45,555 bases of DNA from contig JASJDT010000008.1 in NCBI GenBank assembly GCA_030065655.1, positions 1 through 45,555 of the forward strand. The letters run 5' to 3'. The stretch is from Desulfocapsaceae bacterium. Lineage in GTDB: Bacteria > Desulfobacterota > Desulfobulbia > Desulfobulbales > Desulfocapsaceae. The notes under the pieces were generated by a model. The model was not told where the DNA came from and made no database searches. It was given only the letters and a program-made list of their open reading frames with translations. Every line of letters starts with the position of its first letter. Position 1 is the stretch's first letter. Below are positions 20,735 to 40,362 of the stretch, one piece after another. The translations under genes and the position numbers were made by a program.

Positions 20735-22063
20735 ATGAAAGAAAATTCTGTTGCCGAAAAGCAATCAGCCTACCAGGATATTATGGCTAAACAGAATGCC
20801 TATCTCTGGCAGAGTCATCTGCACTACTATAACGAACCTTTGCCTCTGGATCGTGGTAAAGGTTCGTATGTTTGGGATGTTGCTGACGAGAAATACCTTG
20901 ATTATTTCGGTGGTATCTTGACCACCAGTGTTGGTCATGGGCACCCAAGGATAGTAGAGAAAGTAGCTGAGCAGACAGCCAAGTTGATTCATACTTCAAC
21001 CCTTTATCCGCATGCTAATCATGTCAGTCTGGCTGAAAAAATTGCTGCTATTACTCCGGGCAGGCTACAAAAATCCTATTTCACCAATTCCGGTACCGAA
21101 GCTGACGAACTGGCGCTGATGGCAGCGCGAGGCTATACCGGCAATTATGATATTTTGGCGCTTCGCCACGGTTACTCTGGCAATTCAGCAACAGGGAAAA
21201 CTTTGACCGCTCAGTCCGCCTGGCGGCTCGCCGGGAATATTGTCCCTGGCATAAAACATGCCATAAATCCTTACTGTTATCGCTGCCCTTATAAAATGTC
21301 ATATCCAGGATGTGACATTGCCTGCGCCCAGGATGTGGAAGATGTAATTAAAACGACCACCTGCGGTAAGGTTGCCGGCATTTTAATAGAGCCCATTCAG
21401 GGAGTCGGCGGTTTTATCACTCCACCGGTTGAATATTTTGGCATTGTTTCTGAAATCATCCGCGACCACGGCGGGGTGGTGATTTCCGATGAGGTACAGA
21501 CCGGATTTGGACGAACCGGTGAACATTGGTTTGGCATAGAGCATTGGGGGGTTGAACCGGAGATTATGACCATGGCGAAGGGCATCGCCAATGGCTTTCC
21601 CATGGGAAACACCATTACTGTTCCGGAGGTCGCCGATGCCATGATCGATGGCGGCAATTTTATTTGTACCTTTGGTGGCAATCCGGTTTCAACAATCGCT
21701 TCGCTGACAACCATCGAAATCATGGAGCAGGAGGCCCCACCTCAACAGGTTGCCCAGAAAGGGAGACGCCTTCGCCAGGGTCTTAACGCCATTGCCGAGA
21801 ACTCGCCTTTTGTTGGCGAAGTCAGAGGCATGGGGCTGATGCAGGGTATTGAGGTGGTAAAGGATAAGAAAAGTAAAGAACCGGCTCCAGAGCTGGTTCT
21901 GCAGATATTTGAAGAAACCAAACGGCGAAAGTTGTTGATCGGCAAAGGAGGAATGTACAACAACGTTGTCAGAATTACTCCCCCGCTGAACACGACGGAC
22001 GAAGAGTTGGAAACAGCACTTGGGGTCTTATCCGAGGTTTTTAACGATCTTGCTGGTCAATAA
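20735..22063 (+). CDS. Class III aminotransferase (beta-alanine / 3-aminoisobutyrate:pyruvate type, AGXT2-like)
   Basis: 442 residues, AGGAGGG ribosome site. The PLP fold is shown by YFTNSGTEADELAL, the HGYSGNS segment, ISDEVQTGFGRTG with the Asp that binds the pyridine N, and the Schiff-base Lys in MTMAKGIANGFPMG. A Cys-rich insertion YCYRCPYKMSYPGCDIACAQ is characteristic of the AGXT2/PydD-like branch. In this operon it should convert beta-alanine or 3-aminoisobutyrate, the products of the carbamoylase, to malonate semialdehyde or methylmalonate semialdehyde. It is the first gene of the operon. Confidence 0.88.
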   Translation: MKENSVAEKQSAYQDIMAKQNAYLWQSHLHYYNEPLPLDRGKGSYVWDVADEKYLDYFGGILTTSVGHGHPRIVEKVAEQTAKLIHTSTLYPHANHVSLAEKIAAITPGRLQKSYFTNSGTEADELALMAARGYTGNYDILALRHGYSGNSATGKTLTAQSAWRLAGNIVPGIKHAINPYCYRCPYKMSYPGCDIACAQDVEDVIKTTTCGKVAGILIEPIQGVGGFITPPVEYFGIVSEIIRDHGGVVISDEVQTGFGRTGEHWFGIEHWGVEPEIMTMAKGIANGFPMGNTITVPEVADAMIDGGNFICTFGGNPVSTIASLTTIEIMEQEAPPQQVAQKGRRLRQGLNAIAENSPFVGEVRGMGLMQGIEVVKDKKSKEPAPELVLQIFEETKRRKLLIGKGGMYNNVVRITPPLNTTDEELETALGVLSEVFNDLAGQ

Positions 22064-22111
22064 TTCCAGTGTTGTAGCAGGATGTTTTTATGAAAGAACA
22101 AGGAGGAAATT

Positions 22112-23605
22112 ATGAGTCATCATGATGAGAGCAGGACCGTAAAAAAGGTCGGAGAATTCTATGAGCTACACCCAGATACAGAGATTGTCGACAGCAGCCT
22201 GTATAACGAGGACATTGCCCCAACCATGGTCAAGCAACGAACTTGGCACAAATGGAATGTGGCAGCCCTCTGGGTGGGAATGTCGGTCTGTGTACCAACA
22301 TATACACTGGGTGGTGTTCTTACAGCCTATTTTGGTCTTGATGTTGCTGAGGCGCTCATCACCATTCTACTTGCCAACATAATTGTTCTGATACCGCTGA
22401 CGCTGAATGCTTTCGCCGGGACGAAGTACGGTATTCCTTTCCCGGTTCTGCTTCGATCTTCCTTTGGCACTTATGGTTCCAATATTCCAGCTATTATCAG
22501 AGCAATCGTTGCCTGCGGCTGGTTCGGAATTCAGACCATGTTTGGCGGCATGGCTATAAGTCTGCTGCTCTCGGAGCTCTCTCCTGCCTGGGCATCATTG
22601 GGAGACAAAGGCACGGTGATTGGTTTCTTCATCTTTTGGTGTATGAATATGTATGTTGTTATCAAAGGATCGGAATCCATTAAAAGGTTGGAGAATTTTT
22701 CAGCACCTCTGTTGCTGGCCGTCGGTGTGGGTCTCATTTTCTGGGCATCGCCTCAGATCGATACAGCTTCACTTTTTGGTACTCCCCCGAACAGGCCTGA
22801 AGGTGCTTCGCTCTGGGGCTATTTTTTCGGTGGTCTTACGGCTATGGTGGGCTTCTGGGCGACATTGTCGCTAAACATTCCTGATTTCAGCAGATACTGC
22901 AAATCACAGAAGGATCAAATTGTTGGCCAGATAATGGGGTTGCCTTTGACCATGCTGCTCTTTGCCGCCCTTGGCGTAATCCTCACAGCTGCCTCTCCTG
23001 CTCTGGTCGGGGAAACCATTTCAGATCCTATCAGTCTAATTGGGAAAATAGACAGTCCATTCTGGGTCGTACTGGCGATGATTATTATCATAATCGCTAC
23101 CATCTCAACCAATACTGCGGCGAATATTGTCTCCCCCACCAACGATTTTCAAAATGTATTTCCAAAAGTAATCAATTTCAAACGTGGTACTCTGTTGACC
23201 GGCCTGGTCGGCATTGTCCTGATGGCGTGGGAGTTATTACGGAAAATGGGCTGGGTTGTTTCAGATGTCAGTGTTGAGAGCATGTATTCAAATTGGCTGA
23301 TCGGTTACTCCTCTTTGCTTGGGCCCATCGCCGGCATCATGATTGTCGACTACTTCTTCATCAAAAAGCAGGAACTTAATCTCAAAGATCTCTACCTGAC
23401 AGATGGTTGCTATCCGGCATTTAATATGGTTGGAATTGTTGCTTTCTTTGTCCCCGTTGCCTTGACGGTTTTTTCAATCACCACTGGATTCATGCCGTGG
23501 TTCTACAGCTACGGCTGGTTTACCGGGTCATTCTTAGGCGGAGTTCTCTATTTTGGCCTAAGTTCTATCAAGGCGGAGCAGCCTGCAACTGCTTCAGCAT
23601 CATAG
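22112..23605 (+). CDS. NCS1-family nucleobase permease (cytosine/uracil/hydantoin type)
   Basis: 497 residues, twelve membrane segments, AAGGAGG ribosome site. NCS1 signatures: WNVAALWVGMSVCVPTYTLG, GIPFPVLLRSSFGTYGSNIP, ACGWFGIQTMFGG, and near the end LLGPIAGIMIVDYFFIKK with the following LNLKDLY. It imports pyrimidine bases, hydantoins or allantoin by cation symport. Position between the aminotransferase and the dehydrogenase makes uracil, thymine or dihydropyrimidines the likely cargo. Confidence 0.93.
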   Translation: MSHHDESRTVKKVGEFYELHPDTEIVDSSLYNEDIAPTMVKQRTWHKWNVAALWVGMSVCVPTYTLGGVLTAYFGLDVAEALITILLANIIVLIPLTLNAFAGTKYGIPFPVLLRSSFGTYGSNIPAIIRAIVACGWFGIQTMFGGMAISLLLSELSPAWASLGDKGTVIGFFIFWCMNMYVVIKGSESIKRLENFSAPLLLAVGVGLIFWASPQIDTASLFGTPPNRPEGASLWGYFFGGLTAMVGFWATLSLNIPDFSRYCKSQKDQIVGQIMGLPLTMLLFAALGVILTAASPALVGETISDPISLIGKIDSPFWVVLAMIIIIIATISTNTAANIVSPTNDFQNVFPKVINFKRGTLLTGLVGIVLMAWELLRKMGWVVSDVSVESMYSNWLIGYSSLLGPIAGIMIVDYFFIKKQELNLKDLYLTDGCYPAFNMVGIVAFFVPVALTVFSITTGFMPWFYSYGWFTGSFLGGVLYFGLSSIKAEQPATASAS

Positions 23606-23632
23606 ATAAACAAGTAATCGATCAGGGATATC

Positions 23633-25123
23633 ATGATAGACAATCTTGAGATAATTCAATCCGGAAAAATCGGCAATTACCTTAATGGCCAAATTGTCAT
23701 CCCGGAAGGTGCAGAATATCAGCAGATAATCTCCCCCTATACTGGGGAGGTTATCGGTCAATGCCCTTTATGCGGCAGACAAGAGCTTGATGCTGCAATG
23801 AAATTTGGTAAATCAGTATTTCTAGCATGGAAGAATACCCATATCAAGGATAGAGCCCAGGTTCTCTTTCGGCTCAAACACCTTCTGGAAAACAATATTG
23901 ATGAACTAGCGAATTTAGTTGCACTGGAATGCGGCAAACTTATCGGCGAGGCCAAAGCCGGAATTCTTAAAGGTATTGAAATTCTTGAATACGGATGTTC
24001 CGTTCCCAATATGATAACCGGCGGTTTTCAGGAAGTGAGCAAGGGGATTAGCTGCAGGTTGAGCCGTGAGCCTCTGGGAGTTGTTGCCTCAATCACTCCC
24101 TTCAACTTCCCGCATATGGTCCCAATGTGGACCCTGCCCATCGCTCTGGTATGCGGAAATAGTGTTATTCTCAAACCGTCTGAACAAGTACCGCTCTCTT
24201 CCCTGAAGCTTGCCGAGATGTACACCAAAGCCGGGTTGCCGGACGGTGTGCTTAATGTTGTTCATGGCGGTGCCGAACTTGTCGGGGAAATTTGTGATCA
24301 CCCCGATATCAAGGCGGTGAGTTTTGTCGGTTCAACCCAGGTAGCCAAGGCGGTGTACACCAGGGCGACGGCAAGCGGCAAGCAGGCATTGGCACTGGGT
24401 GGGGCGAAGAATCATCTTATCTGCATGCCGGATGCCGATCCCGATTTTTCCCCCGAACAGATAGTCAATTCGGTTACCGGCTGCGCCGGTCAGCGGTGTA
24501 TGGCGGCAGCAACTCTTATCACCGTGGGGAATTGTGATCATCTCATCAAAAAGATGGTGGCCTATGCTCAAAGCTTCAGACTTGGCCGAGACATGGGTGC
24601 GATCATTAACAGGGCAAGCCTTTCCCGCATTGAAAATTTCATTGACGAAGCGATGGCAGAGGGTGGCACTCTTCTTGTTGACGGCAGAAATCTTCTTCCT
24701 GAAGCGGTGCTTGCCAACTCTGAGAACGGCAATTGGATAGGACCCACAATTATTGATAATGTTCAACCCGGTATGGCCATTGCCAGGGAAGAAGTCTTTG
24801 GCCCGGTCATGGCTATCATCAGGGTAAATACTCTGGAAGAGGCAATAGAAATAGAAAACAGCAATCCATATGGCAATGCTGCTGCTATTTTCACCTCCTC
24901 CGGTGCGCCTGCTGACTATGTTGCAGAACATGCCAGTGCCGGCATGCTTGGCATAAATATTGGTGTACCTGTACCGCGTGAACCATTCTCATTTGGCGGC
25001 TGGAATGATTCTCGTTTTGGCGGAGGAGATATTACCGGTCAGGATGGCATTAATTTTTGGACAAAAAAGAAAAAATTGACCACAAAGTGGGTTTTTCCCA
25101 AAAACCCGGATTGGATGAGCTAG
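23633..25123 (+). CDS. mmsA: CoA-acylating methylmalonate-semialdehyde dehydrogenase
   Basis: 496 residues, CAGGGA before the ATG. Aldehyde dehydrogenase fold with SITPFNFPHMVPMWTLPIALVCGNSVILKPSE, VSFVGSTQVAK for NAD binding, and the catalytic Cys in CAGQRCMAAATLITVG; the C-terminal FGGWNDSRFGGGDITGQDGINFWTKKKKLT is diagnostic of MmsA/IolA. It turns methylmalonate semialdehyde into propionyl-CoA plus CO2, or malonate semialdehyde into acetyl-CoA plus CO2, with NAD. This joins pyrimidine breakdown to central metabolism. It starts 27 bp after the permease gene. Confidence 0.95.
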   Translation: MIDNLEIIQSGKIGNYLNGQIVIPEGAEYQQIISPYTGEVIGQCPLCGRQELDAAMKFGKSVFLAWKNTHIKDRAQVLFRLKHLLENNIDELANLVALECGKLIGEAKAGILKGIEILEYGCSVPNMITGGFQEVSKGISCRLSREPLGVVASITPFNFPHMVPMWTLPIALVCGNSVILKPSEQVPLSSLKLAEMYTKAGLPDGVLNVVHGGAELVGEICDHPDIKAVSFVGSTQVAKAVYTRATASGKQALALGGAKNHLICMPDADPDFSPEQIVNSVTGCAGQRCMAAATLITVGNCDHLIKKMVAYAQSFRLGRDMGAIINRASLSRIENFIDEAMAEGGTLLVDGRNLLPEAVLANSENGNWIGPTIIDNVQPGMAIAREEVFGPVMAIIRVNTLEEAIEIENSNPYGNAAAIFTSSGAPADYVAEHASAGMLGINIGVPVPREPFSFGGWNDSRFGGGDITGQDGINFWTKKKKLTTKWVFPKNPDWMS

Positions 25124-25145
25124 CTACAGTGTCAAGGAGGAATCC

Positions 25146-26525
25146 ATGTCAACCCTGCTGATTAAAAACGGCGAAATTATTACGGCGATGGACCGATGTC
25201 GCAGTGATGTGTATATACAGGAAGGTCGCATTGCCGCTATTGGTACGGATTTAGACGTATCTGCCGAGCGGGTGATAGATGCCGCCGGCCACTATCTGTT
25301 ACCGGGAGGTATTGATGTTCACACCCATTTTGATATGCCTTTCATGGGTGAGGTATCTGCCGATGACTTTGAATCCGGAACGGCAGCAGGTATTGCCGGA
25401 GGAACAACATCGATCATCGATTATGTCGTACCGGCCAAAGAGCAGTCGTTGCTGGAGGCTCTTGAAACCTGGAAGGCGAAAGCCAAAAACGCTGTTGCAG
25501 ATTACGGCTTTCACATGGCGGTGACCTGGTACAGCGATCAGGTAGCCAGGGAGATGCAGGTCTGCGTTGAAGAAGAGGGCATTCCCAGCTTCAAAGCATT
25601 TCTGGCGTATAAAGATGCCATCATGGTCAATGATGAGGAGCTGTTTTCAATGCTCAAGGCTTCTCGTGAACTCGGTGCACTTATTATGGCGCACTGTGAA
25701 AATGGTGAGATTATTTCGGAGTTGCAGGAGAAATTCTTTACCGAGGGAGGTACAGAGCCGGTGTATCATGCCCTGTCACGGCCTTCCTATGCGGAAGGAG
25801 AGTCTGCCTTTCGTCTTACTCAGATGGCTCGTTCATTGGGAGTTCCAGCGTATTTCGTGCACATGAGTTGCCGGGAATCGACCAAAGTACTGGTTGAGGG
25901 AAGGGCCGAGGGCATTGATCTCTACGGCGAAACCTGTCCCCAATATCTTTTGCTGGATGATACCGTGTACGAACAACCCGATTTTCGCGGCGCAGCGTAT
26001 GTGATGAGCCCCCCTATTAGACCCAAAGGCCACGCCGAGGCATTGTGGGGAGCTATCCGGTCCGGTCAGATTCAGGTCGTTGGGACCGATCATTGCCCTT
26101 TTAATCTCAAAGGGCAGAAAGAAATGGGAAGGGAAGATTTTCGTAAAATCCCCAATGGAGCAGCAGGAATCGAAGATAGACTCAAGCTGCTTTATACCTA
26201 TGGAGTGTTGCAAAAACGGATAACCTTGCAGCAGCTAGTAGCCGTTACCAGTACAAATCCTGCACAAATATTTGGCATGTATCCCCGGAAAGGTACCATT
26301 GCGATAGGTTCCGATGCAGATATCGTAATATGGCAGCCCAAGGGTGAGGGTACCATCTCCGCTGAAACGCATTTTCATAAAGTTGATACCTCTATTTTCG
26401 AGGGCATGAAAACTGAAGGTGGACCAGCCGTGGTAATAGCCGCCGGCAGGGTCCAATTTGAAAACGGCAAGTTGGATGTGGAACCCGGAGCAGGCCGATA
26501 TCTTCCAAGGTGGCTGAATACATAG
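25146..26525 (+). CDS. Dihydropyrimidinase (D-hydantoinase family)
   Basis: 459 residues, AAGGAGG ribosome site. The amidohydrolase metal centre is complete: HTHFDMPF near residue 60, the carboxylated Lys in PSFKAFLAYK, AHCENG, YFVHMSC and VVGTDHCPF. These are the residues of cyclic-amide hydrolases of the dihydropyrimidinase/hydantoinase/allantoinase group; the order and the operon favour dihydropyrimidinase, opening dihydrouracil or dihydrothymine to the N-carbamoyl beta-amino acid. Hydantoinase activity is possible. Confidence 0.93.
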   Translation: MSTLLIKNGEIITAMDRCRSDVYIQEGRIAAIGTDLDVSAERVIDAAGHYLLPGGIDVHTHFDMPFMGEVSADDFESGTAAGIAGGTTSIIDYVVPAKEQSLLEALETWKAKAKNAVADYGFHMAVTWYSDQVAREMQVCVEEEGIPSFKAFLAYKDAIMVNDEELFSMLKASRELGALIMAHCENGEIISELQEKFFTEGGTEPVYHALSRPSYAEGESAFRLTQMARSLGVPAYFVHMSCRESTKVLVEGRAEGIDLYGETCPQYLLLDDTVYEQPDFRGAAYVMSPPIRPKGHAEALWGAIRSGQIQVVGTDHCPFNLKGQKEMGREDFRKIPNGAAGIEDRLKLLYTYGVLQKRITLQQLVAVTSTNPAQIFGMYPRKGTIAIGSDADIVIWQPKGEGTISAETHFHKVDTSIFEGMKTEGGPAVVIAAGRVQFENGKLDVEPGAGRYLPRWLNT

Positions 26526-26573
26526 GAAACAGGCCCCTAATGAAGATTGGGATATTATAGATGGAGAGTGGTG

Positions 26574-27878
26574 ATGGCTGATCTTTCAATTGATTTTTGC
26601 TCTATTCAAAGCCCAAATCCTTTTTGGCTGGCTTCAGGACCGCCTACGAACACAGGAGACCAAATCAAACGTGCCTTTGACCGGGGCTGGGGAGGGGCGG
26701 TGTGGAAAACTCTGGGCAATCCGGTAAAAAACGTAAACAGCCGTTATGCTGCCATGAGTAAAGGGCGCAACAAAATTATCGGTTTGAATAACATTGAGCT
26801 AATCACCGACCGGGGGCTGAGCATCAATCTCCAAGAGATGGGGGAGGTAAAAAAAGCCTATCCTGAAAACGCAGTTGTTGCCTCGATTATGGCTGACAGT
26901 TTTGCCGAGTGGCAGGAACTCATTGCCAGGGTTGAGCAAACCGGTGCAGACGGTATTGAACTAAATTTCAGTTGTCCTCATGGGATGTGTGAACGAGGTC
27001 TTGGTTCGGCGATTGGGCAGGAGCCTGCTGTTGCGGAGAAAATCACCAGATGGGCGAGAGAATGCTCTTCGCTGCCCATTATCGTCAAACTTACCCCTAA
27101 TGTGGCCGATATAAACGAGCAGGGTATGGCAGCAGTTGCCGGTGATGCCCATGGTGTTGCCTTGATTAACACCATTAAAAGCATCATAGGTGTTGATCTT
27201 GATGATTTCATTCCATATCCCAAATTAAGAAATGGTTCTACCAACGGTGGCTATTGCGGACCGGCAGTAAAACCCATTGCTTTGCATATGGTGGCTTCAC
27301 TCAATCGAAATCCTGACTTTTCCTTACCCGTCTCGGGCATTGGCGGTATAACAAACTGGCAGGATGCCGCTGAGTTTCTTGCCCTGGGTTGTAGTACCGT
27401 GCAGGTGTGTACTGCGGTAATGCATCATGGTTTTGGCATTATCGATGAAATGATAAAAGGATTGTCTGTATACCTCTCCGAGATGAATATGGAAAGCGTT
27501 GCCGAACTTCGAGGCAGAGCCCTGCCGCACTATAAGGATTGGGCCGAGCTTGATATGAACTACAAGGTCGTTGCCACCATCGATGAGGATAAATGCATTG
27601 GCTGTGGTAAATGTTATACCGCCTGCCAGGATGGCGCCTACCAGGCGTTGGCTTTATCTCGGAAAACGACTAAGGAGGGTAAGCCTATACCCACCGTTCT
27701 CGGGGATAGATGTACCGGCTGCAATCTGTGTTCGCTGGTCTGTCCGGTTGAATGTATTGCCATGGTGGATGTTTCCGAATCCGATGAGATTGAAAGCTGG
27801 AACGAGATAGTAGCCAGAGGGAAGTTTGTCGTCAAAGACGGTTTGTCATCGACTGAATCAACAAAATCCATAGCGTAG
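26574..27878 (+). CDS. preA: Dihydropyrimidine dehydrogenase subunit PreA-like
   Basis: 434 residues from the ATG at 26574, with GGAGA upstream. The N-terminal 310 residues are a dihydroorotate-dehydrogenase-like FMN barrel: NPFWLASGPPTNTGDQI, the active-site NFSCPHGMCERGLGSAIGQ (its first Cys corresponds to the catalytic Cys of mammalian DPD), and GGYCGPAVKPIALHMV. The C-terminus carries two 4Fe-4S motifs, CIGCGKCYTAC and CTGCNLCSLVCPVEC. It should reduce uracil or thymine to the dihydro form, or run in reverse. The FAD/NAD(P)H-binding partner PreT is not in the window, so the electron donor is unknown. Confidence 0.93.
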   Translation: MADLSIDFCSIQSPNPFWLASGPPTNTGDQIKRAFDRGWGGAVWKTLGNPVKNVNSRYAAMSKGRNKIIGLNNIELITDRGLSINLQEMGEVKKAYPENAVVASIMADSFAEWQELIARVEQTGADGIELNFSCPHGMCERGLGSAIGQEPAVAEKITRWARECSSLPIIVKLTPNVADINEQGMAAVAGDAHGVALINTIKSIIGVDLDDFIPYPKLRNGSTNGGYCGPAVKPIALHMVASLNRNPDFSLPVSGIGGITNWQDAAEFLALGCSTVQVCTAVMHHGFGIIDEMIKGLSVYLSEMNMESVAELRGRALPHYKDWAELDMNYKVVATIDEDKCIGCGKCYTACQDGAYQALALSRKTTKEGKPIPTVLGDRCTGCNLCSLVCPVECIAMVDVSESDEIESWNEIVARGKFVVKDGLSSTESTKSIA

Positions 27879-27888
27879 GGGAAGTGAG

Positions 27889-29127
27889 ATGAATCTTGAC
27901 AAGCTCAGAATAAATGGTGCAAGGTTGCAGCAATCTCTGGAAAAAATGGCCCAAATAGGCGCAACACCTGGGGGTGGCGTGCAGAGACTTGCTCTCTCCG
28001 ATGAGGATAAGAAAGCCAGAGATCTCTTTGTCCACTGGCTTAAGGAAATTGACTGTGAGGTCACCATTGATCAAATGGGCAATATATTTGGGCGCAGAGC
28101 GGGGAAAAACAGAAATCTTGCCCCGGTCATGAGTGGCTCACATATTGACTCCCAGCCCAAGGGAGGAAGATTTGATGGAATTCTGGGGGTTATGTCTGCA
28201 CTCGAAGTGCTCCGTACGCTCCACGAGAATAACGTTGAAACGCAAAGAGACATTGTTATCGTCGATTGGACAAATGAAGAGGGTTCCCGGTTTGCACCGG
28301 CCATGGTTTCTTCAGGCGTTTGGGTGGGCAAACTCGATCTTGAATGGGCCTATGCCAGGCAGGATATTAACGGCAAAAAGCAGGGAGAGGAGTTGGCTCG
28401 AATCGGCTATAAAGGTGAATTACCAGCCAAGTCTTTTCCCATCCATGCCTATTACGAGTGTCATATAGAACAGGGTCCGCAGTTGGAAAAAAAGGGAAAA
28501 GTCATTGGTGCTCCAAAAGGTGTTCTTTGCCTTCACTGGTATGACATTCGGTTGAAGGGAACAGCCAATCAGGTTGGGCCTACTCCCATGGCTGGCCGCA
28601 ATGATTGTTTGCTTGCTGCGGCAGAAATGATTCAGGTGGTCAATAAGGTTGCCCATATCAAGGGTGATATGGTTGCAACAGTTGGTGAGTTGCATAACCA
28701 TCCGAATTCGCGAAACATTATCCCGGACGGAGTCCACTTTACTGTGGATATTCGCTCCTGGGAAGACGAGCATGCCATTGACGCGTGGGAGATGATGAAA
28801 CTGGAGTTCGAAGCAATAGCAAATCGCCATGGAACGCCAATTGACATGGAAATAACTTGGCGGGTGAAGCGAGCTCCATTTGACGAAGAACTGGTCTACA
28901 ACGTCCTAGAGGCCTCCGAAAAACTTGGCTACTCTTCCCTGCGCATGGTGAGTGGTGCAGGGCATGATGCATCATACATCAACCAGATAGCACCTGCGGC
29001 CATGATATTCATCCCATCAAAAGGTGGGAGAAGTCATGTCGAGGTGGAGGAGTCAAGTTGGGAGGATTGCAGCAAAGGAGCGAATGTGCTGTTGCAGTGC
29101 ATCCTGAAGTCAGCAATGCAGGCATAA
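27889..29127 (+). CDS. M20-type N-carbamoyl amino acid amidohydrolase (beta-ureidopropionase/HyuC type)
   Basis: 412 residues, starts 10 bp after preA. Zinc-ligand motifs of the hydantoinase/carbamoylase family are present: MSGSHIDSQPKGGRFDG, DWTNEEGSRFAPAM, CHIEQGPQLE, and the final GAGHDASYI. It removes the carbamoyl group from N-carbamoyl-beta-alanine or N-carbamoyl-3-aminoisobutyrate, giving CO2, ammonia and the beta-amino acid for the aminotransferase encoded first in the operon. An N-carbamoyl-alpha-amino acid substrate cannot be excluded. Confidence 0.92.
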   Translation: MNLDKLRINGARLQQSLEKMAQIGATPGGGVQRLALSDEDKKARDLFVHWLKEIDCEVTIDQMGNIFGRRAGKNRNLAPVMSGSHIDSQPKGGRFDGILGVMSALEVLRTLHENNVETQRDIVIVDWTNEEGSRFAPAMVSSGVWVGKLDLEWAYARQDINGKKQGEELARIGYKGELPAKSFPIHAYYECHIEQGPQLEKKGKVIGAPKGVLCLHWYDIRLKGTANQVGPTPMAGRNDCLLAAAEMIQVVNKVAHIKGDMVATVGELHNHPNSRNIIPDGVHFTVDIRSWEDEHAIDAWEMMKLEFEAIANRHGTPIDMEITWRVKRAPFDEELVYNVLEASEKLGYSSLRMVSGAGHDASYINQIAPAAMIFIPSKGGRSHVEVEESSWEDCSKGANVLLQCILKSAMQA

Positions 29128-34979: not shown

Positions 34980-35183
34980 TTATCTTTTCGGTCGGCAAAG
35001 ATGCTGTGGATCAGCGGAAACATTACCACATTCACAGGTGTACGTCATATCTGTGACGTGCTCATCGCAGACTCCAGCACTCTTTATGCTGCAGGATTTG
35101 TTTTTATACATATCACCTATGGGATTGCACACGTTCGCTTTACTTTCGTCGGTTACACCGCAATTCTGACATATATAAGCCAT
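34980..35183 (-). CDS. Small Cys-rich protein with paired Cys motifs
   Basis: 67 residues from the ATG at 35183, with AGGAG 7 nt upstream; the longer frame lacks one. Eight Cys are arranged as CQNC, then NVCN, SCS, VCDE, CECG and LCRPK. This suggests zinc-ribbon or iron/zinc-binding modules, possibly two repeated units. Similar mini-proteins are common in sulfate- and metal-reducing deltaproteobacteria, but I do not know a function. It is monocistronic. Confidence 0.7.
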   Translation of the reverse strand: MAYICQNCGVTDESKANVCNPIGDMYKNKSCSIKSAGVCDEHVTDMTYTCECGNVSADPQHLCRPKR

Positions 35184-35652
35184 GGTAGGTCTCCTGATAA
35201 TATTTCTTAAAGGTTCTTTACTTTTGTTTATTTTAAAGCCAGCAGTAAGTGGATCAATAGCTTCATCCATTATTTACTCCCGAAAGAAACTGGAGAGGAT
35301 GAAGCATCATTCTAACAAGAACAATAGATCTGCATATGCACAGTTGTCAATGTTATCGAGCTGAAAAGCAGGTCGAAAAGAGAATGAACAATTGACTTTT
35401 TCAAGAGTAAGAGCAACTATATTCTTGTTTGTTTATGAGGAAACACTAATAAAATCGTCACTCTCCAAGATGAAGTCGGCGTTTGATTGGGAGAGGCGGG
35501 CATCTTATCAAAAGAACAGGTTGCCGAAAAGATCTCTAAAAGTGTTTCTTAAGTGTTGAGTTATGCATATACTGCCTATCACATTATTTGCTCGTTTATT
35601 GCCATCGAGAGCCGGTATAATGAGGGGTAACACATGAGCATGCGAGGTCATC
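35184..35652. other. 469-bp intergenic region, no gene recognised
   Basis: AT-rich, between the divergent Cys-rich mini-gene and the SDR/radical SAM fusion. No promoter or terminator is convincing. The GAGG ribosome site of the fusion lies at its right edge. Confidence 0.4.
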
Positions 35653-37551
35653 ATGGATTCTTCATTCTTCTCAGGGAAAATCATTCTATTAACAGGTGCA
35701 ACGGGAGATCTTGGCTCCACACTTGCCCGAAGTCTTTCTTCATTGGGAGCGGATCTTGTTCTCTCTTCACGTTCTGCCGAGAAGCTTGAGACCCTTATAG
35801 ATACGTTGCCCCAAAAAAGAAAAGCAATAGCTTTGCCAGCCGATCTTTCTCAGCAGAGTGAAGCTGAAAAGCTTGCCGACAGAGCCATTGAACAGGCTGG
35901 GCATATTGATATTCTGATAAACAATGCCGGGCTTGGCTACTTTGCTCTTATGGAGGAAGCGGATGAAGAGAAAATACGTTATCTCTTCGAGGTCAATACT
36001 TTCTCTCCTCTGGCTCTCATCAATAGACTGACTCCCCATATGGCCAAGCGTGGTGGCGGACGGATTATTAACATCGTCTCCAGCGCTGGTAGGGTGCCGA
36101 TTCCCACGGTGGGTGTTTATGGTGGCAGTAAATCGGCGCTGGCGGTGATGACCAATACCATGCGGCTGGAGCTGGAGCCCAAAAATATTGATGTCCTCAA
36201 TATTTATCCAGGTACCATCAATGATTCCTTTGAAAGAAACGCCATGCGCGAAAATGATCGCCTTGGTCTCTGCCCGACAGCCGACTGCGGCGATGCTGAG
36301 GAGATGACGGTGGCAGAAATCATAGCTGCCGCTGCTGGTGAACCGGGAGAAATCTGGCTGGAAAAAACCGGTAAATGGATGGCGCTGGCTGCAATAGCCT
36401 GGCCCAGCATAGTCGATAATCGCTTGAAGCATTTGCGTAACAAGGCGGTTACCGCCTCCGATGCTGAAAAACCAAAGGAATTGCGGAGATGGCGTCTTCT
36501 CCAGGTAGAGTCATCCCTTGCCTGCAATCTTAAATGTATCATGTGTCCCTGGGTGGATGAACGAAAAAACATGCAGCAACGGGGGCACATGAGTCAAGCA
36601 ACCTGGGAGGCGATACTTCCTCATCTGCCCGAAGTACGTTCCATCGATTTCACCGGTGGTGGGGAACCGCTGCTACAGAAAAACCTCCTTGAATGGATAG
36701 GTCAGGCAAAGGCCAGCGGTTGTGAGGCAGGATTTCTGACCAATGGTCTGCTGCTATCAGAAGAGGTGAGCAGGCGCGTTCTTGATGCCGGTATTAACTG
36801 GATTGGTTTTTCCGTTGATGGGGCGGATAAAGAGACCTATGATTTCATCCGCCGCGGCTCGGATTTCGATGTTATCTGTAAAAATATTAAATATCTGACC
36901 GACAATCGAGTCGACACGCTGCCGATGACCATGATTAATTTTGTTATCATGCAGTCGAACTATCATCAACTGGAAAAGATCATCCAACTTGCCCATGATC
37001 TGGGGGTCGATCAGGTTAATTTCAAACAATGTGATGTCATCAGGGGAGAGCACGGCAAGGAGTTCGGTCTGTTTGATTCTGAGGAGACCAAAAAAGTGAA
37101 GCAGCTCAAGAAAGCTTTGGACAAGGCTAACCGGCTGGCACGCAAACTCGAAGTGAAAACAACCTCATTTTCTTTTGTGCCGGAGGAACAGTCGGTATGC
37201 GATCAGGATCCCAGAGATTCATTGTTCATCCGTTTCGATGGTTCAGTTTCACCGTGTATAAATCTTGCCATTGGCGGCCCTTCCACCTTTCTCGGCAAGG
37301 ACATTATCTTCCCGCACGTTGCCTATGGGAAAATTCCCGATGAAGATATTCTGGCTCTCTGGGAGAGCGAGCAATGCAATTTCTATCGGCGCACTTTTTC
37401 CCAACGGGTGAAGGCTTACGATGCAGCGCTTGCCAAAGCCGATTTCGGCCATGATATTATCAAGCTCAAGGAAGCTTTTCGGGATGCGATCAAAGCAATG
37501 CCTGAGGCTCCGGATGGTTGCAAAACCTGTCATTATCTCTACGATATTTAG
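35653..37551 (+). CDS. Fusion protein: short-chain dehydrogenase + radical SAM/SPASM-like enzyme
   Basis: 632 residues in one frame, GAGG 6 nt before the ATG. Residues 1-265 are a classical SDR: TGATGDLG (14-21) for NAD(P), NNAG (90-93), catalytic Ser143/144, Tyr156 and Lys160 in VYGGSK. Residues about 283-632 are a radical SAM enzyme: CNLKCIMC at 291-298 binds the 4Fe-4S cluster, and FTGGGEPLL is the SAM-contact GGE motif. Near the end SVCDQDPRDSLFIRFDGSVSPC and GCKTCHYLYDI offer Cys for an auxiliary cluster (SPASM-like). The two activities should act in sequence on one substrate, unknown. It is isolated, with no precursor peptide or biosynthetic partners adjacent. Confidence 0.9.
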   Translation: MDSSFFSGKIILLTGATGDLGSTLARSLSSLGADLVLSSRSAEKLETLIDTLPQKRKAIALPADLSQQSEAEKLADRAIEQAGHIDILINNAGLGYFALMEEADEEKIRYLFEVNTFSPLALINRLTPHMAKRGGGRIINIVSSAGRVPIPTVGVYGGSKSALAVMTNTMRLELEPKNIDVLNIYPGTINDSFERNAMRENDRLGLCPTADCGDAEEMTVAEIIAAAAGEPGEIWLEKTGKWMALAAIAWPSIVDNRLKHLRNKAVTASDAEKPKELRRWRLLQVESSLACNLKCIMCPWVDERKNMQQRGHMSQATWEAILPHLPEVRSIDFTGGGEPLLQKNLLEWIGQAKASGCEAGFLTNGLLLSEEVSRRVLDAGINWIGFSVDGADKETYDFIRRGSDFDVICKNIKYLTDNRVDTLPMTMINFVIMQSNYHQLEKIIQLAHDLGVDQVNFKQCDVIRGEHGKEFGLFDSEETKKVKQLKKALDKANRLARKLEVKTTSFSFVPEEQSVCDQDPRDSLFIRFDGSVSPCINLAIGGPSTFLGKDIIFPHVAYGKIPDEDILALWESEQCNFYRRTFSQRVKAYDAALAKADFGHDIIKLKEAFRDAIKAMPEAPDGCKTCHYLYDI

Positions 37552-37587: not shown

Positions 37588-38190
37588 TTAGCGCGAAAAA
37601 ACATCACTAGCCTGATTCCGGCGAAACTCTGCGGTACTTTTTTCAATTGATTCTACTGCTGCAGTTGTCCGTTCATCTTCATTTTCCAGGTCCGGAAGTA
37701 AAGCCCTGTTCAGCTCCCGCTCAACCGAGTTGAGCCGGTTAAGAGCGAGGAGATAGTTGGATTTTTTTCCATAGCAAGACTGCACCAGTGATGTATAGTC
37801 GCTGCCGTTGGCCTCCATAAGCGACCGGTAAAAAACAATGAGTTCATTAACCCAAGCACCATAGGCATCACGTGCGTGTTGCGGTGCATTGCTTGCTGCA
37901 ATAAGCTCTTCCAGGTTTATGTGGCTTTTGTCTGCCAAAGCTTTGTGAACAGCATCCAGAACCCGCTTACGTGTTCTCAGAAAATCGTGCTTGAAGTTAG
38001 TGAGCCCGTTTTTGTACCGTTTAAATTGGAAATAGTAGAAAACAAAAAATACCGGAATCAGAATCATCCATAAACTAAGCAATGGTTTATCGATCACTTC
38101 TCCGGCAACATGGGCGGTGAGGACTCTTTCATTCTCGAGTATGGAGTTATATTTCTCTTGTAAATTTTTTATTTTATCCTTGTTTTCCAT
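37588..38190 (-). CDS. Unknown single-TM protein, third gene of the YeiH-type operon
   Basis: 200 residues. A short N-terminal helix (KIKNLQEKYNSILENERVL) is followed by one membrane segment at about 40-56 (SLWMILIPVFFVFYYFQF), then a helical, charged cytoplasmic domain with KRVLDAVHKALADKSHINLEEL and a Glu/Arg-rich end. No catalytic motif is recognised. The ATG lies 1 nt beyond the TGA of the preceding gene, so translation is coupled. The association with the transporter suggests an accessory subunit or regulator. It converges on the SDR/radical SAM gene. Confidence 0.75.
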   Translation of the reverse strand: MENKDKIKNLQEKYNSILENERVLTAHVAGEVIDKPLLSLWMILIPVFFVFYYFQFKRYKNGLTNFKHDFLRTRKRVLDAVHKALADKSHINLEELIAASNAPQHARDAYGAWVNELIVFYRSLMEANGSDYTSLVQSCYGKKSNYLLALNRLNSVERELNRALLPDLENEDERTTAAVESIEKSTAEFRRNQASDVFSR

Positions 38191-38191
38191 G

Positions 38192-38533
38192 TCAGCGTGG
38201 TAGGCAGCGAAAACCGAAATAAAGGATAAGCAGGCAGATGATGATGCCTGAGATAAATGGAAGGGTCAAACCATAGTGCTCCGGGGCGAGAAACTGCAGA
38301 GATTGATCAAGATAGGCATAACCATCGGTTGCCCCTTCTATCTCTGTATAGTAATAGGCTCCGCCATCAATACCGCTTTCCTCCATAACGGTGACTATCT
38401 CATCCATGCCGAAGATATGTTGCTGGAGCCAGGGCCCTATAAAAACACCGAAAATATAGACCATAAAGAGGACTGACAGCAGGACTAGCCAGCCTTTCTT
38501 CTTGTTCATGGTCGTGTTGTTTGCGGTTTGCAT
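38192..38533 (-). CDS. Small two-TM protein, second gene of the YeiH-type operon
   Basis: 113 residues from the ATG at 38533 (AAGG upstream); the longer frame would overlap the transporter gene. Two membrane segments flank a periplasmic loop: WLVLLSVLFMVYIFGVFIGPWL near the N-terminus and TLPFISGIIICLLILYFGF at the end. The loop includes DGGAYYYTEIEGATDGYAYL. No known family. It starts 66 bp after the transporter stop and touches the third gene, so the three form one operon. Confidence 0.7.
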   Translation of the reverse strand: MQTANNTTMNKKKGWLVLLSVLFMVYIFGVFIGPWLQQHIFGMDEIVTVMEESGIDGGAYYYTEIEGATDGYAYLDQSLQFLAPEHYGLTLPFISGIIICLLILYFGFRCLPR

Positions 38534-38598: not shown

Positions 38599-40362
38599 TT
38601 AGATGGTTGCGGTCAGTTCTGGAAATACCACGTAGAACATGATATAGGCAACCAACAGAGTCAGACAGAGATTGAATGATTGTCCGAAAACATACAGAAT
38701 GAGGGGTTTTCCACCCACCAAATGTTCCTTGAGCTCCCGGAAATTGGTGGCCAGACCGATACTGACAAAGGAGAGCGTAAAGAACCATCCTCTGAAAAGA
38801 TCGCCCATGCCTTTAACCACACCCTGGTCGATCATTGCCGGTCCAAGACCTGCAACCTGATTGTTAAAAGAGGTATAGATCAGCGAGAAAACAATGGAAG
38901 CTGCAATAAACCCGATAACGAACTTCGGGAATCTGTACCATATTTCCATGGCCCCGACTTTCTTGCCGGTTTCCTCCGCCTCAACCCGAGTGGTGAAGTA
39001 GATAGCCACGGCAAAGGCCATAACCCCGATGAGAACATTCTGAATCATCTTGATGGTTGCGGCAACATACAGCGCTTTTTCACCCAGGAAGGCACCGGCT
39101 GCTGCAACTGCACCGGTGGCGTCGATGGTACCGCCCATCCAGGCACCGCCGAGGATCAGTTGTTTATCAACCGGGAAAGTTGTTTTAATAATTGCCGGCA
39201 TGACAATCATCATGATTGAGGTGAAGACCAGAGAAAGACCCACCGAAAGAGTAAGCTCTTCCTTTTTGGCCTTACAGGCGGCTGCTGTGGCAATGGCCGC
39301 ACTGACCCCACAGACACTCATGTCCGAACAGATTGTGGCATTAAGCCGTTTGGAAGGTATCTTGATATATTTCTGACCGACATAATAGGTAACCAGCCAA
39401 ACGGTCGGGGTAACAACCCAGGCGACAAAGATACCCGCCGTACCGATGGTGATGATTTTCTCAAAGAGAATACTTGCTCCCAAGAGAACCAGACCGGTCT
39501 TGATATAAAACTCAGTTTGGACCGCTGGCATTGCAAACTTTGGCGTACCGACGGTATTGGAGATAAGAATCCCGAAGAAAATCGCCCAGAAAGCATAACC
39601 TACGCCATAGGCTTTCATGGTTGCCTGGGTGGCGGCAAAATGTGAAAGGACGGAGACCAGCCAGATAAAAGTGAAGCCGATAATGAATGCCGTGAATGAT
39701 TTACCCATGGCTTTCATGCCAATACCAAAAAATACGGCAAAACTGGCACCAAGCAGAAGCAGCCAGCCTATCTGGTTGTAAGGTTTGGCTTTGGTTTTGC
39801 TCTGGGCCTTGCTTGCTTTCAGCCTGGTATCACGCCAATTGGCAATGGCAGTCTTAGCTTCCTCATTGAGCTGGGCATTGGCAAAACCGGCGGTCTCTGC
39901 CTTTGCTTCCGCAGCCTGGGCCACGACCAATGCTTCCGCTGCTGCGGCCTTAAGTGGTTCAGCTTTGGCTACGGCTTTTTCTTTCTTGGCCGTGGCAGCA
40001 GACTCGCTCATGAAAAAGGCATTTGCTGGATTGGTGCTCCAGCTATGCGTCTTTTTGGCAAAATTTGAAAGCCATTTCCCTACGGCAATATCCTTGGCCT
40101 TGACCTTTTTTTTGGCATCATTGAGCTGATGCCAACCAATCGTGCGGAACTTATCGGTTTTCTGAGCATCTGCCGCATATTTTGCCTCAATGGCAGTAAG
40201 TTCCTGCTCGAGTTTGCCTGCTTGTGGAAAATAGATGATAACGCCCATGAGCAAGATGAAGAAGCCGAGCCAGACGGCCCACCAATCTTCCTTCTTCCAC
40301 ATCTCGGACCATTCCCATTTCCCCACATCTACTACTACTTGATCCCCATTTTTTTCAGCCAT
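38599..40362 (-). CDS. YeiH-family putative sulfate/anion exporter with N-terminal extension
   Basis: 587 residues, AGGAGA ribosome site. Residues about 200-587 are the YeiH core (PF03601-type), ten helices with the signature [21 protein letters not shown] and [21 protein letters not shown]. The first 200 residues are not in ordinary YeiH: one membrane segment ([19 protein letters not shown]) and then an Ala/Lys/Glu-rich, probably coiled periplasmic or cytoplasmic domain. Sulfate export has been proposed for relatives. Gene order and the sigma-54 promoter upstream indicate control by the divergent two-component system. Confidence 0.88.

Follow-up and report, generated by a model that had tools for sequence, protein, structure and literature searches.

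A gene in a Desulfocapsaceae bacterium encodes a fusion of a classical short-chain dehydrogenase (SDR) and a radical SAM enzyme in one polypeptide of 632 amino acids. Both halves are members of known superfamilies, and it is the combination that appears to be new. Neither Pfam nor the best 25 NCBIfam matches offered a model of the whole SDR plus radical SAM architecture. Furthermore, no description of this architecture, of the cysteine pair that is specific to the fusion, or of the interchangeable partner described below was found in the open-licence papers searched. As a rule, one enzyme carries out hydride chemistry and another radical chemistry. The presence of both in one conserved polypeptide, which has a cysteine pair of its own and a partner that can be swapped, points to an unstudied pathway in sulfate-reducing-type bacteria. 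The fusion also provides a tractable system for asking whether a direct coupling of nicotinamide and radical SAM steps is possible.

A conserved gene fusion

The gene is located in a 45,555-nucleotide stretch of contig JASJDT010000008.1, referred to here as the window (Table 1). The preliminary description, made from the sequence of the window, had reported a single continuous frame with complete catalytic motifs in both halves and a good ribosome site. These features were all recovered: the open reading frame runs exactly from 35653 to 37551 on the forward strand, GAGG is found ca. 7 nucleotides upstream of the ATG, and the motifs are intact (TGATGDLG at residue 14, NNAG at 90, S143, Y156-x3-K160, CNLKCIMC at 291, and GGGEP at 335). 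Three Pfam domains exceeded their curated cut-offs, namely, adh_short (residues 9 to 194; E value of 1.2e-47; 162 bits), Radical_SAM (residues 288 to 446; 3.8e-18; 66.6 bits versus a cut-off of 29.5), and SPASM (residues 516 to 579; 1.6e-5; 25.5 bits versus a cut-off of 21.5).

Table 1. Features of the fusion gene, its conserved neighbors, and a related fusion with another partner
Feature	Position	Strand	Basis
SDR::radical SAM/Twitch fusion gene	35653..37551	+	Single continuous frame, 632 aa, ATG start; Pfam
Classical SDR domain, residues 1-262	35653..36438	+	Pfam adh_short; PDB SDR folds
TGATGDLG nucleotide-binding motif, residues 14-21	35692..35715	+	Sequence, alignment
SDR catalytic S143, Y156, K160	36079..36132	+	Invariant in 12/12 fusions
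Fusion-specific Cys pair C207-X4-C212, SDR substrate loop	36271..36288	+	11/12 fusions, 0/20 free SDRs
Interdomain linker, residues 263-277	36439..36483	+	pLDDT low at 254-272; conservation weak
Radical SAM partial barrel, residues 278-500	36484..37152	+	Pfam Radical_SAM; strands beta1-beta6 in model
CNLKCIMC, predicted SAM [4Fe-4S] ligands C291, C295, C298	36523..36546	+	Conservation
GGGEP SAM-binding motif, residues 335-339	36655..36669	+	Sequence, alignment
Twitch-like C-terminal domain, residues 510-632, predicted ligands C516, C535, C623, C626	37180..37551	+	Conservation
NF038143 (HYxxLL) family protein, conserved neighbor	37588..38190	-	193 bits versus cut-off of 50
Small membrane protein, gene flanked by the NF038143 and YeiH-like genes	38192..38512	-	Start inferred from L013 homologue
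YeiH-like transporter (PF03601), conserved neighbor	38599..40362	-	Pfam
Radical SAM half fused to GNAT/LPG-synthase-like domain, no SDR	L027:8813-10945		

A further 11 full-length fusions, with 54 to 79% identity, were retrieved from related genomes and a public genome collection. The fusions occur in Desulfobacterota and related metagenome-assembled genomes, in records assigned to Desulfobulbaceae, Desulfobacteraceae, Desulfobacterales, Desulfomonile, and a Deltaproteobacteria bin, and one of the 11 sits in a one-contig genome of 4.2 Mb (G006). Therefore, the fusion is not an assembly artefact. The concern raised at the outset that homologues might always be separate genes is likewise ruled out by the 12 fused genes in different genomes. 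The distribution is patchy: the 258 genomes of the order to which the window belongs contained four fusions, counting that of the window, and a single radical SAM relative that stands alone. The window's genome has a single fused copy, and its remaining matches were SDR or radical SAM proteins of single-domain size that scored below 70 bits.

Both halves are maintained. In the three pairs compared, dN was 0.08 to 0.18, while dS ranged from 0.7 to saturation in each half, and purifying selection thus acts on the SDR half and the radical SAM half alike. Trees computed separately for the two halves were congruent on well-supported groups, a pattern that would fit one old fusion.

The SDR half

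The N-terminal half has the TGxxxGxG motif and the N-S-Y-x3-K tetrad of classical SDRs, and the tetrad (N115-S143-Y156-K160) is complete in every one of the 12 fusions. An AlphaFold model built from the alignment (pTM, 0.57) was good in the radical SAM barrel but poor in the SDR active-site loops, with pLDDT values below 50 at residues 144 to 157 and 191 to 213. When this model was used in a fold search, residues 1 to 251 matched PDB SDR folds with Z scores of ca. 26, and SDR chains filled the matches listed. The location of R40 after beta-2 suggests that NADP is the cofactor. Fold, tetrad, and cofactor motif are common to the fusion and to classical SDRs (adh_short proteins such as glucose/ribitol dehydrogenases and 11beta-HSD1), whereas the fusion adds the C-terminal radical SAM domain and the cysteine pair C207/C212.

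This cysteine pair is placed in the loop that follows the PG motif, and the free SDRs with which it was compared were 20 proteins from related genomes. The sole fusion without it, L020 (1053-2879), also lacks the CX3CX2C motif, which is removed by an in-frame gap of ca. 23 residues in its radical SAM half, and it keeps the SDR catalytic residues and all of the Twitch cysteines. The joint loss of C207/C212 and the SAM-cluster motif, a single case in a metagenome bin, is suggestive but is not proof. A free SDR closely related to the fused one was not found in any of 12 genomes, the nearest proteins being generic SDRs with ca. 31 to 37% identity.

The radical SAM half

The CX3CX2C motif that characterizes the radical SAM superfamily lies within the Radical_SAM domain as C291-X3-C295-X2-C298 and was present in 11 of the 12 fusions and in every non-fused relative scanned. 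Residues G335, G337, and E338 of the GGGEP motif were invariant across 16 aligned sequences. A candidate active-site residue is C460, which is located where strand beta-6 of the model ends and is retained in every fusion and close relative.

The preliminary description considered the C-terminal cysteines to be suggestive of an auxiliary cluster in a SPASM-like enzyme. The SPASM motif has seven cysteines, arranged as CX9-15GX4C-gap-CX2CX5CX3C-gap-C (PMC6231123). Twitch domains are shortened SPASM domains with one cluster, which in BtrN is ligated by four cysteines (PMC6231123, PMC9012708). The conserved part of the fusion consists only of C516-X13-G-X4-C535 and C623-X2-C626, invariant in all 16 aligned sequences, and the pattern CX13GX4C...CX2C was found in all 22 sequences scanned. 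Because a SPASM domain needs seven cysteines and the Twitch domain of BtrN four, the four invariant cysteines indicate that the C-terminal domain is Twitch-like, with a predicted BtrN-like ligation, and not a full seven-cysteine SPASM domain. Thus, the auxiliary cluster site stands, but the cysteine set fits a Twitch domain with one cluster and not a SPASM domain, which has two.

By sequence, the radical SAM half matched BlsE best among PDB entries (E value of 1.4e-12), followed by SkfB, MoaA, PqqE, and BtrN. Sequence similarity is a poor guide to function within the SPASM/Twitch subfamily (PMC6231123).

Alternative partners of the radical SAM module

In the order of genome G363, to which the Desulfomonile records belong, the same radical SAM protein is found alone, fused to an SDR, or, in G363, with another N-terminal domain that has a weak GNAT match (Acetyltransf_6; 22.2 bits versus a cut-off of 22). 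In three other genomes (L028, L059, and L060), the GNAT-like protein has a gene of its own, immediately upstream of that for the radical SAM protein. It is also found with SDR fusions, directly upstream with the genes touching in L019 and nearby upstream in L016. Because related radical SAM proteins occur alone or fused to a GNAT-like domain, the radical SAM module has at least two alternative partners, of which the SDR is one. No GNAT-like homologue was found with a single query sequence in the window's genome, which is 84.5% complete; given both limits, this is a weak negative.

A single clade of SDR fusions was rejected in the tree of the radical SAM half (p-AU, 4e-5), in which several branches were weakly supported. 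The SDR-less proteins L029 and L058 were nested among SDR-fused proteins, which would fit loss of the SDR; neither of the two genomes yielded a free SDR close to the fused one.

A second GNAT-like gene, adjoining a TraB/PrgY/gumN-family gene, was observed at five loci (L027:6768-8467, L028:11461-13325, L059:4274-5986, L060:5016-6798, and L019:3062-4790). At the first four loci, it and the GNAT-radical SAM pair are divergent, and in L019 it is ca. 5 kb away. An independent, unfused pairing was seen at L030:7034-10168, where a free SDR gene is followed after ca. 54 bp by a TIGR04317-like radical SAM gene and a second, divergent radical SAM gene adjoins.

Gene neighborhood

The linkage of the radical SAM half to the GNAT-like gene, and to a YeiH-type transporter together with NF038143 proteins, extends across orders. 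Genes for a YeiH-like transporter (PF03601) and NF038143-family proteins are found beside the fusion in the window and in L013, L016, and L019. In two genomes of the G363 order, more distant radical SAM relatives (ca. 34% identity) likewise have a YeiH-like gene next to them. It is unlikely, in our judgement rather than from a computed probability, that the proximity of YeiH-like and radical SAM genes arose repeatedly by chance in separate lineages. At L047:6139-10113, YeiH, two NF038143, and GNAT-like genes stand in a row without a radical SAM gene. This row is a conserved module, and the transporter module thus also exists independently of the radical SAM gene. The fusion is far from the transporter module in G006 and G022. 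In the window the fusion gene and the transporter set are convergent and therefore do not form one operon.

The YeiH-like transporter of the window has an extra Ala/Lys-rich N-terminal region, with the PF03601 match starting at residue 229. Divergent from the fusion gene is a gene (34983-35270, reverse strand) for a small Cys-rich protein with CxxC pairs and a rubredoxin-like look. A same-strand run at 20735-29127 that includes genes for an aminotransferase, a PreA-type dihydropyrimidine dehydrogenase, and an allantoate/carbamoyl amidohydrolase resembles reductive pyrimidine breakdown.

Possible functions of the fusion

We tentatively favor, at somewhat less than even confidence, a bifunctional enzyme in which an NADP(H)-dependent SDR and a BtrN-like radical oxidoreductase catalyze sequential steps on one small alcohol or ketone substrate. 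BtrN (2-deoxy-scyllo-inosamine dehydrogenase) catalyzes the two-electron oxidation of an alcohol, with the auxiliary cluster as the proposed electron acceptor (PMC9012708). Like the fusion, it combines a radical SAM barrel with one four-cysteine auxiliary cluster site. By analogy, the C-terminal half would reductively cleave SAM at the C291/C295/C298 [4Fe-4S] cluster, and the resulting 5'-deoxyadenosyl radical would abstract a hydrogen atom from the substrate, most likely at the carbinol carbon. The fully Cys-ligated Twitch cluster (C516, C535, C623, and C626) would then take the second electron, as proposed for BtrN. The SDR half would interconvert the ketone and alcohol forms of that molecule, either ahead of the radical step or following it, and the two reactions together would yield a net stereo-inversion or a double oxidation. 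Where it is present, the linked GNAT-like enzyme may supply or modify the substrate, and the YeiH-type transporter may move it. The likeness of the SDR half to 11beta-HSD1-type structures, together with the membrane-type neighbors, hints at an amphiphilic substrate. Sequential chemistry on one substrate, already put forward in the preliminary description, is still something that we infer, unlike the architecture, motifs, and auxiliary cluster site; the fusion-specific cysteine pair and the congruent trees strengthen it. However, the sequence similarity to BtrN is weak (E value of ca. 0.001) and limited to the N-terminal region, and BtrN has ca. 270 amino acids in PDB entries and no SDR. Also counting against the bifunctional scheme, the SDR fusions do not group as a single clade and the SDR is missing from some relatives. 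Thus, the SDR step is either dispensable or provided in another way.

An alternative that is possible but clearly less probable is C-C, C-S, or redox-neutral chemistry, such as BlsE-like decarboxylation or MoaA-like cyclization, on a small molecule derived from a nucleoside or amino acid, with the SDR setting a carbonyl before or after. The rank of BlsE (cytosylglucuronate decarboxylase) among PDB relatives, the match of MoaA models to a non-fused relative as well, and the linkage to the GNAT/LPG-synthase-like enzyme are consistent with it. However, the similarity to BlsE is confined to the barrel, and a non-fused relative scanned against the BlsE family model TIGR04466 scored only 48 bits versus a cut-off of 400. 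Moreover, the MoaA cluster has three cysteines and an open site (PMC9012708), whereas four are invariant here. It is unlikely that the radical SAM half matures a tungsten (AOR-type) or other metalloenzyme with the SDR as helper. The names of the best NCBIfam models suggest such a role (TIGR04317, W_rSAM_matur, 146.5 bits; TIGR04311, rSAM_Geo_metal, 135.2 bits), and TIGR04317 aligned over most of its length, but the scores are far below the cut-offs of 380 (equivalog) and 400, and the fused SDR is a further difference from these putative maturases. AOR genes were present in all 18 genomes examined, so common that co-occurrence is uninformative, and no AOR match was found in the neighborhoods listed, the nearest one seen being ca. 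15 kb away in G022.

Two oxidoreductases that are loosely joined without a shared substrate appear improbable. The occurrence of some relatives of the radical SAM half without an SDR is in line with such independence, but the fusion has been retained across orders with congruent trees, and the fusion-only cysteine pair is absent together with the SAM motif in L020. Maturation of a small peptide is the least probable of the explanations considered. Many SPASM/Twitch enzymes are RiPP maturases (PMC9012708), and a peptide was among the substrates initially suggested. However, no conserved short open reading frame was found near the 18 loci except apparent shadow frames of neighboring genes, and Pfam matched the N-terminal domain to SDRs with no RRE-type domain in the fusion, making a peptide substrate less likely.

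Within the fusion itself, the C207/C212 dithiol could have a more direct role, which we regard as speculative. Facing the radical SAM active site and recharged by NADPH, it would terminate the radical reaction by donating a hydrogen atom or an electron. The fusion would then act as a self-contained radical epimerase or reductase driven by NADPH.
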